The notes under the pieces were generated by a model. The model ran no database searches. It saw only the letters and a list, made by a program, of their open reading frames with translations, and was not told where the DNA came from. From an uncultured Saprospiraceae bacterium (GTDB lineage Bacteria > Bacteroidota > Bacteroidia > Chitinophagales > Saprospiraceae), in assembly GCA_938001865.1 (NCBI GenBank), contig CALLAW010000048.1:1-64000 (forward strand): DNA of 64,000 nucleotides, in the 5' to 3' direction. The stretch's first letter is position 1, and the number at the start of each line of letters is the position of its first letter. Shown here piece after piece: positions 5,215-7,052 of the stretch. Position numbers and translations under genes: made by a program.

Positions 5215-5419
5215 AATATTATGTGGTTTCGTTATTATAAGTTCGAGTAAAAATAGGCTTTTCTGACAATTTTACTTGCTGATAACTGACTCTAAGTATT
5301 CTAACCTCAGATTTGTAAGAATCGATTCAGATTTTTTTAGAAAAAAGTGAGTGTAAAATTCATACTTAAAAAAAATATATATATTTTTGAGGATCGATTT
5401 TATCCAATATTAGGATTAT

Positions 5420-5496
5420 GGCCTCTTAGTTCAATGGTTAGAATGACAGTTTTATTTTTTGTGATTGTAGATGGTGGACGATCCCACCAGGGGCTA
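5420..5496 (+). other. tRNA-like cloverleaf / possible tRNA pseudogene
   Basis: Acceptor GGCCTCT/AGGGGCT, D-arm GTTC-AATGGTTA-GAAT, anticodon-like stem ACAGT/ATTGT with a 13-nt loop, T-stem GGTGG/CCACC with loop ACGATC, and discriminator A. Confidence 0.6.
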
Positions 5497-5531
5497 TGTT
5501 CTAAAAATATCAGATAAATCGATAAAAAACT

Positions 5532-6299: not shown

Positions 6300-7052
6300 C
6301 TAAACAAACTTCCTCTGAACAAGTTTGACAAAAGTCTTTGCTTTCTTGGCTTTAGAGGCATCTGCCCACTTATTATCTCTAGCTACTGTACTACTGAGAT
6401 ACTGCGCTGCCTCGTCATATGATGAGCAAGCATCTAGTTTGGATACCACTGAGTTGAACAGTGACTGATCACCTCCGAAGAGCTCTTTTATGGTAAAGAT
6501 CTTCTCATTGATCCCCATGGAATTAGCGATATCTTTTACTTTGGTGATACTCAATCTATCTGACAGATCTGTCGCTTCTATTTTCTCAAAGATTGGCTTG
6601 AGATCATCCGACATTTCTAGTGTATTGGCTACTACTGCTGAGGCACCTGATGCAACGGCAGTAGCTGGCATTGTCTGTTCATGTGCAGCAACCATAGAGA
6701 CGTTATCTACAACTTGGCTCGATTGTGGTGCTGTGGCAACTGGTTGATTCGATTGAGGGCTTGCCTCTCTGACAGGGCTTGCCTGCACAGTAGGTTCGGG
6801 CTCTATTGATGGAGTTTCCTTAACTGGTTCATTCTGTACGACAGGTTCTGCGGCTTGGATCTTTGTTGCCTCAGCCTGTGACTTACCAGAGCCTTTAGAC
6901 TTATCGATGAGTGTTTCATAGAGCTGGATTACATACTTTTTGAGGAGTTCTTGCTCGAGAGTACTAATTGATTGATCTGACTGCATAGAGTCGAATATCG
7001 TAGTAATTTTATTGAGTTTGCTCTTAAACTTTTTTGAATCCATAGGTATCAC
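6300..7052 (-). CDS. Hypothetical protein with low-complexity P/Q/A/V linker between two folded ends
   Basis: Long ORF in the rhomboid gene direction. The N-terminal helical region, linker and C-terminal about 90 aa helical region are visible; no family recognised with confidence. Confidence 0.6.
   Translation of the reverse strand: MIPMDSKKFKSKLNKITTIFDSMQSDQSISTLEQELLKKYVIQLYETLIDKSKGSGKSQAEATKIQAAEPVVQNEPVKETPSIEPEPTVQASPVREASPQSNQPVATAPQSSQVVDNVSMVAAHEQTMPATAVASGASAVVANTLEMSDDLKPIFEKIEATDLSDRLSITKVKDIANSMGINEKIFTIKELFGGDQSLFNSVVSKLDACSSYDEAAQYLSSTVARDNKWADASKAKKAKTFVKLVQRKFV

Follow-up and report, generated by a model that had tools for sequence, protein, structure and literature searches.

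A tRNA-Arg(CCU) gene without its anticodon, probably recruited as a longer structured RNA in two genera of Saprospiraceae

Introduction

A gene for tRNA-Arg(CCU) has probably been recruited in the Saprospiraceae to serve as a longer structured RNA for which the anticodon is no longer needed, in the manner of tRNA-Other of Bacillus cereus, a reading that draws on seven species in all and on two independent losses of the anticodon. One copy lies at 5420-5496 of the window, by which we mean the whole stretch of 64,000 nucleotides that was analysed. The window comes from genome G000, which belongs to genus g1 together with its sister G001 and with G002 and G003; the other carriers, G127, G205 and G254, belong to a related genus, g125. 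Recruitment of tRNA genes to non-decoding roles has been examined in few bacteria. Here a single orthologous gene is found within one clade in three versions (intact, one-base-deleted and enlarged-loop) with conserved ends in all, which makes the order of events readable and testable: the new ends would have come first, and loss of the anticodon would have followed, twice.

The cloverleaf in the window

The tRNA family model RF00005 matches 5420-5496 over its full length (1-71) with 41.8 bits (E 8.5e-8 in 301 bases, Infernal), well above the gathering score of 29. Infernal thus bears out the tRNA-like cloverleaf proposed in the preliminary description of this DNA. ARAGORN, also suggested there, leaves 5420-5496 uncalled when run on the window, an example of how annotation pipelines can drop such genes. 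An Rfam gathering scan over the whole 64 kb has no entry at 5420-5496 either, presumably owing to speed filters, and among Rfam matches other than tRNA none is convincing at the element. The self-folding energy of the window copy by itself is weak evidence (z -1.2).

Re-reading the sequence confirms every stem, loop, base and coordinate previously described, all on the forward strand. The acceptor stem pairs GGCCTCT (5420-5426) with 5489-5495, followed by discriminator A73 at 5496, and includes G1.U72 and U5.G68. In the D arm (5429-5444, GTTC-AATGGTTA-GAAT), the stem 5429-5432/5441-5444 is intact in all seven species, and the alignment places a T where A20 is expected. The anticodon arm (5446-5468) keeps its stem, 5446-5450/5464-5468, around a loop of 13 nt, TTTATTTTTTGTG, instead of the 7-nt loop with CCU seen in orthologues (ACAGT-TTCCTAA-ATTGT in G002 and G003). 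The T arm (5473-5488, GGTGG-ACGATC-CCACC) has a sound stem, 5473-5477/5484-5488, and a loop of 6 nt, one base short of the 7-nt TTCRANY.

Orthologues and loss of the anticodon

The cloverleaf is no chance resemblance, since orthologues are present at the same locus in G001, G002 and G003. In G002 and G003 the gene is an intact tRNA-Arg(CCU) of 63.2 bits with the loop TTCCTAA, and CCU is kept in three of the seven species (these two and G254). The remaining four have lost it by different routes. G000 and G001 have enlarged loops whose sequences are mutually unrelated; that of G001 is 18 nt long, CTTAAGTTATTTAAGTTT, and can form a small hairpin of its own. A TTGTGA/TTGTAGA duplication, put forward earlier as the origin of the window's loop, is possible, but the sister species gives it no support. 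G127 and G205 have in common a one-base deletion leaving a 6-nt anticodon loop; the base is one C of a CC pair, so that the deletion could in principle have occurred twice. Judged by these orthologues, the element is a descendant of tRNA-Arg(CCU) that cannot decode, and the alignment indicates at least two independent losses of the anticodon, one by loop enlargement and one by the one-base deletion. The loss in G000 and G001 likely dates to their common ancestor.

These two sisters show further damage. The T-loop is affected in G000 and the D-loop is shortened in G001, and they are the only ones with T at position 20, where the other five have A, an arginine identity base. An independent case of a CCU gene undergoing genuine decay within the family is the tRNA-Arg(CCU) at L169 (G010:C15:8501-8955), in which the 3' half of the T arm is missing.

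Exact-pattern scans of GTDB r220 contigs find the element in only six other MAGs, all Saprospiraceae, which we take to be G001-G003, G127, G205 and G254, and an exact-pattern scan of IMG/VR gives no match to it. A search for the leader described below in 398 genomes of the family and 399 of the order adds no carrier; four order-level matches to the tRNA body lack the leader on inspection.

Decoding capacity

There is no C in the window's loop, and hence neither a CCU nor a UCU anticodon can be made from it, even by splicing. The window's genome nevertheless still uses AGG, at 6.0 per 1000 codons, so AGG decoding does not depend on the element. With the C-less loop, T20 and the short T-loop, this means that the element is not an ordinary tRNA. 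Avoidance of AGG as the cause of anticodon loss was considered and is not seen at this usage in G000.

tRNA-Arg(UCU) can also read AGG by wobble, and a gene for it is found in six of the seven genomes, namely the six relatives. In G000 it was sought and not found; contig C40 breaks off about where tRNA-Arg(UCU) would lie, shortly after sequence similar to that upstream of the gene in G001, so an assembly gap is the likely reason. The tRNA-Arg(UCU) genes themselves fall into two sequence types, GGTCTYG.. and GGCTCC.. (L072, L213 and L214 versus L024, L025 and L197), with the 15-48 pair swapped between A-U and G-C. A link between the type of this tRNA and loss of the anticodon, suggested within the seven species by three genomes with type B and loss and three with type A and an intact CCU, does not extend to the wider family: G106 and G195 have type B and an intact CCU.

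It is improbable that the element continues to serve translation as a tRNA with an odd loop, by splicing, by frameshift or two-base decoding, or through an altered anticodon. The acceptor, D and T stems are intact, as this would require, and in G127 and G205 the 6-nt loop might open its last pair to give an 8-nt loop presenting UCU. The change at position 20 in G000 and G001 and the tRNA-Arg(UCU) genes of the relatives speak against it. So does the content of the loops: the single C in the G001 insert, like the absence of C in G000, means that splicing cannot restore CCU. No decoding role is known to us for loops as large as these, of 13 nt and about 18 nt.

Conserved leader and trailer

The preliminary description was right about the cloverleaf and overlooked the conserved sequences on either side of it. 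The seven-species comparison reveals a leader of about 27 nt, ATCGATTTTATCCAATATTAGGATTAT, at 5393-5419 and a trailer, ATGTTCT, at 5496-5502, with no encoded CCA (both forward strand). All seven species have ATCGATTTTA-C and TAGGATTAT upstream and ATGTTCT downstream, and the flanks further out soon become unalignable. Between the genera, leader identity over 26 nt is 0.85-0.88; the leaders of other orthologous tRNAs in the same genomes average 0.57-0.63, the highest control value being 0.85 in a single case. The trailer, too, is better conserved than in other tRNAs.

The leader and trailer are also complementary to each other and would extend the acceptor stem. The 5' strand of the extension is AGGATTAT (5412-5419, forward strand), invariant in the seven species, and its partner is the equally invariant trailer at 5496-5502 and beyond. 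Seven of eight pairs can form in five species and six of eight in G000 and G001, where folding suggests a shifted register. In 162 control tRNAs the mean is 2.8 pairs, and only one control reaches seven. The extension helix is so nearly invariant that it gives no covariation as a test of pairing. Where tRNA-Arg(CCU) is intact in other genera and families, inspection shows neither leader nor trailer nor extended stem, so these ends are most likely older than loss of the anticodon in the clade. Across 5412-5429 all seven species also have a Shine-Dalgarno-like AGGA and a three-codon frame over the tRNA 5' end (AGGATT-ATG-GCC-TCT-TAG, encoding MAS or MAP before the stop), which could have arisen as a side effect of the stem's conservation.

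Upstream of the leader, a pattern scan identifies TATTTTTG (5382-5389, forward strand), 30 nt before the tRNA-like part, as a match to TAnnTTTG, the consensus of the Bacteroidota -7 box. The match is exact in G000, G001 and G002 and reads TAnnTTTA in the three g125 species, so that six of the seven species have TAnnTTTG/A upstream at a distance of 29-30 nt; G003 has TAGTTTCG there. Among 186 other tRNAs, 107 have TAnnTTTG within 80 nt upstream, at a median distance of 18 nt, which makes the element's leader longer than usual. The element is presumably transcribed and presumably not aminoacylated.

Selection and compensation

Conservation of the element stands out against the divergence of its surroundings. 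At four-fold degenerate sites of neighbouring genes, every pair of species measured differs at 0.62-0.76 of positions, which amounts to saturation. Despite four-fold divergence of 0.66, G127 and G205 are identical at all 71 tRNA bases and over the 26-nt leader, for which the chance is near 1e-10 if a change probability of 0.3 per site is taken. On this evidence, and provided that the two share a single deletion, selection has persisted in them after decoding was lost. G002 and G003, which keep CCU, show no difference in the 107 nt that span leader, body and trailer (four-fold divergence 0.68). In G000 and G001, about four positions outside the loop differ at the same four-fold divergence, which is suggestive of continued selection in the window's own lineage.

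The stems behave in the same way. In the seven-species alignment, 98.9% of stem cells hold standard pairs, compared with 43-54% when the partners are slid. Two pairs are altered on both sides. Acceptor pair 5-68 is C-G in five species, U-G in G000 and U-A in G001, and the third T-stem pair is U-A, A-U, C-G or U-G without ever being unpaired. The earlier argument that survival of the stems counts against random drift is thereby strengthened by the relatives, which neither lack a comparable element nor carry stem-breaking changes, the two outcomes that had been named as fatal to the finding. The comparison thus firmly supports selection on the stems, leader and trailer, alongside the ancestry and the loss of the anticodon.

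The main rival is that a dispensable tRNA-Arg(CCU) is decaying in G000 and G001 as a recent pseudogene, its stems intact for lack of time. We consider this unlikely, although the T-loop damage in G000 and the D-loop damage in G001 are what decay would produce and weigh against recruitment. Decay would also account for the loss of A20 and for two enlarged loops that differ from each other, and L169 documents that CCU genes do decay in this family. A pseudogene should lack purifying selection and carry uncompensated stem damage; apart from the two damaged loops, this is not the pattern found. The few differences between G000 and G001 outside the loop contrast with 0.68 at four-fold sites, G001 has completed the compensation from C-G to U-A in the acceptor stem, an anticodon-less form has stayed unchanged between two well-separated species of the other lineage, and leader and trailer are conserved as well. 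Of the three identities that had been left open, an atypical tRNA can therefore largely be set aside (no C in the loop, T20), a recent pseudogene keeps some weight for G000 with its damaged T-loop, and for the clade the best-supported identity is a tRNA-like structural RNA, given the conserved ends, the compensated stems and the 71/71 identity after loss of the anticodon.

Genome neighbourhood

In the window the element is flanked by a divergently transcribed gene for a lipoprotein-like rhodanese (PF00581, 4783-5214, reverse strand) and by a convergent rhomboid protease gene (PF01694, 5532-6269, reverse strand), both assigned by Pfam. The rhodanese gene and an outer-membrane barrel gene adjoin the element in G000, G001 and the three g125 species, and neither is beside it in G002 and G003. 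The rhomboid gene is adjacent only within genus g1, and the downstream gene varies. Because the neighbours vary, the element most likely forms a transcription unit by itself and is not part of one mRNA as its leader.

Two features of the locus would also suit a conserved DNA element, either an attachment site or the promoter of a neighbour, in place of an RNA: tRNA genes are common integration sites, and the divergent rhodanese gene adjoins in five species. This is the least probable of the readings. The flanks vary among species, the leader is fully conserved between G002 and G003 where the rhodanese gene is not adjacent, and no integrase is found among the five neighbouring proteins searched. 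Compensatory changes that keep pairing would be needless for a DNA site.

Two further loci were noted in passing. Beside the rhomboid gene, at 6300-7052 (reverse strand), is a gene for a 250-aa protein that is conserved across the genus and has no Pfam match. In G127, about 20 tRNA-like genes, some of them low-scoring, are densely packed at L242 (G127:C12:7000-11100), which resembles a phage or mobile-element tRNA cluster.

A model for recruitment

In the recruitment that we favour, tRNA-Arg(CCU) would have been redundant, AGG being readable by tRNA-Arg(UCU) as well. In an ancestor of the two genera, the gene would have been recruited to make a structured RNA about 110 nt long, laid out as a promoter, the conserved leader, the tRNA-like body and the conserved trailer, with leader and trailer paired to lengthen the acceptor stem. 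Once the new role was in place, the anticodon would have been free to go, and it was lost at least twice: the window's lineage enlarged the loop, and another lineage deleted one base.

For each of the four species that lack CCU, an unconstrained minimum-energy fold beats the cloverleaf by 1.6-2.9 kcal/mol, which counts against recruitment; what refolds is the D/anticodon part. Because the extended acceptor stem, T arm and leader stay constant while that part refolds, the acceptor/T-arm helix and the leader are taken to be the working part, the tRNA shape being perhaps recognised by a protein or used in regulation. The RNA would most likely act through this shape (the extended acceptor and T-arm helix with its elbow), as a stable binding platform or a regulatory RNA and not as a decoder. 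More tentatively, the element could represent a new family of regulatory or scaffold RNAs, derived from a tRNA and caught in transition: three species may still have a bifunctional tRNA and structured RNA, and four have given up the anticodon and would keep the extended acceptor, T arm and leader as the working part.

Comparison with known systems

The tRNA-Arg(CCU) of Saprospiraceae and their relatives is the direct ancestor, with the same stems and, within the genus, an orthologous locus; in the other genera examined it differs in being without the element's leader, trailer and extended stem. Bacterial Y RNAs of the YrlA type combine a tRNA-like module with a long end-to-end stem, both of which the element has. 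Nevertheless, a Y RNA acting with Ro60 can be rejected: the TROVE domain (PF05731) is absent from all seven genomes in a search with a positive control, and tRNA gives the only convincing Rfam match. tmRNA has a tRNA-like acceptor and T arm and no working anticodon. The element differs from it in being about 110 nt long with full D and anticodon stems, and neither ARAGORN nor Rfam calls a tmRNA at the element.

Among known systems tRNA-Other of B. cereus offers the closest precedent; this pseudo-tRNA is not used in translation, and its transcripts extend 5' and 3' of the tRNA part (PMC3399842). Its deletion alters the cell wall and antibiotic resistance, and it has been proposed as the source of a tRNA-like structural element in a larger regulatory RNA (PMC3399842). 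Recruitment of a tRNA gene outside translation thus has a precedent, which by analogy the element probably resembles. Both are tRNA-derived, and in the element the counterpart of the extended transcript would be the conserved leader and trailer with the promoter-like box. tRNA-Other has a Trp anticodon and adjoins a genomic island (PMC3399842). In the element described here, by contrast, it is the anticodon that has gone, the gene descends from tRNA-Arg(CCU), and the acceptor stem is lengthened by pairing of the leader with the trailer.
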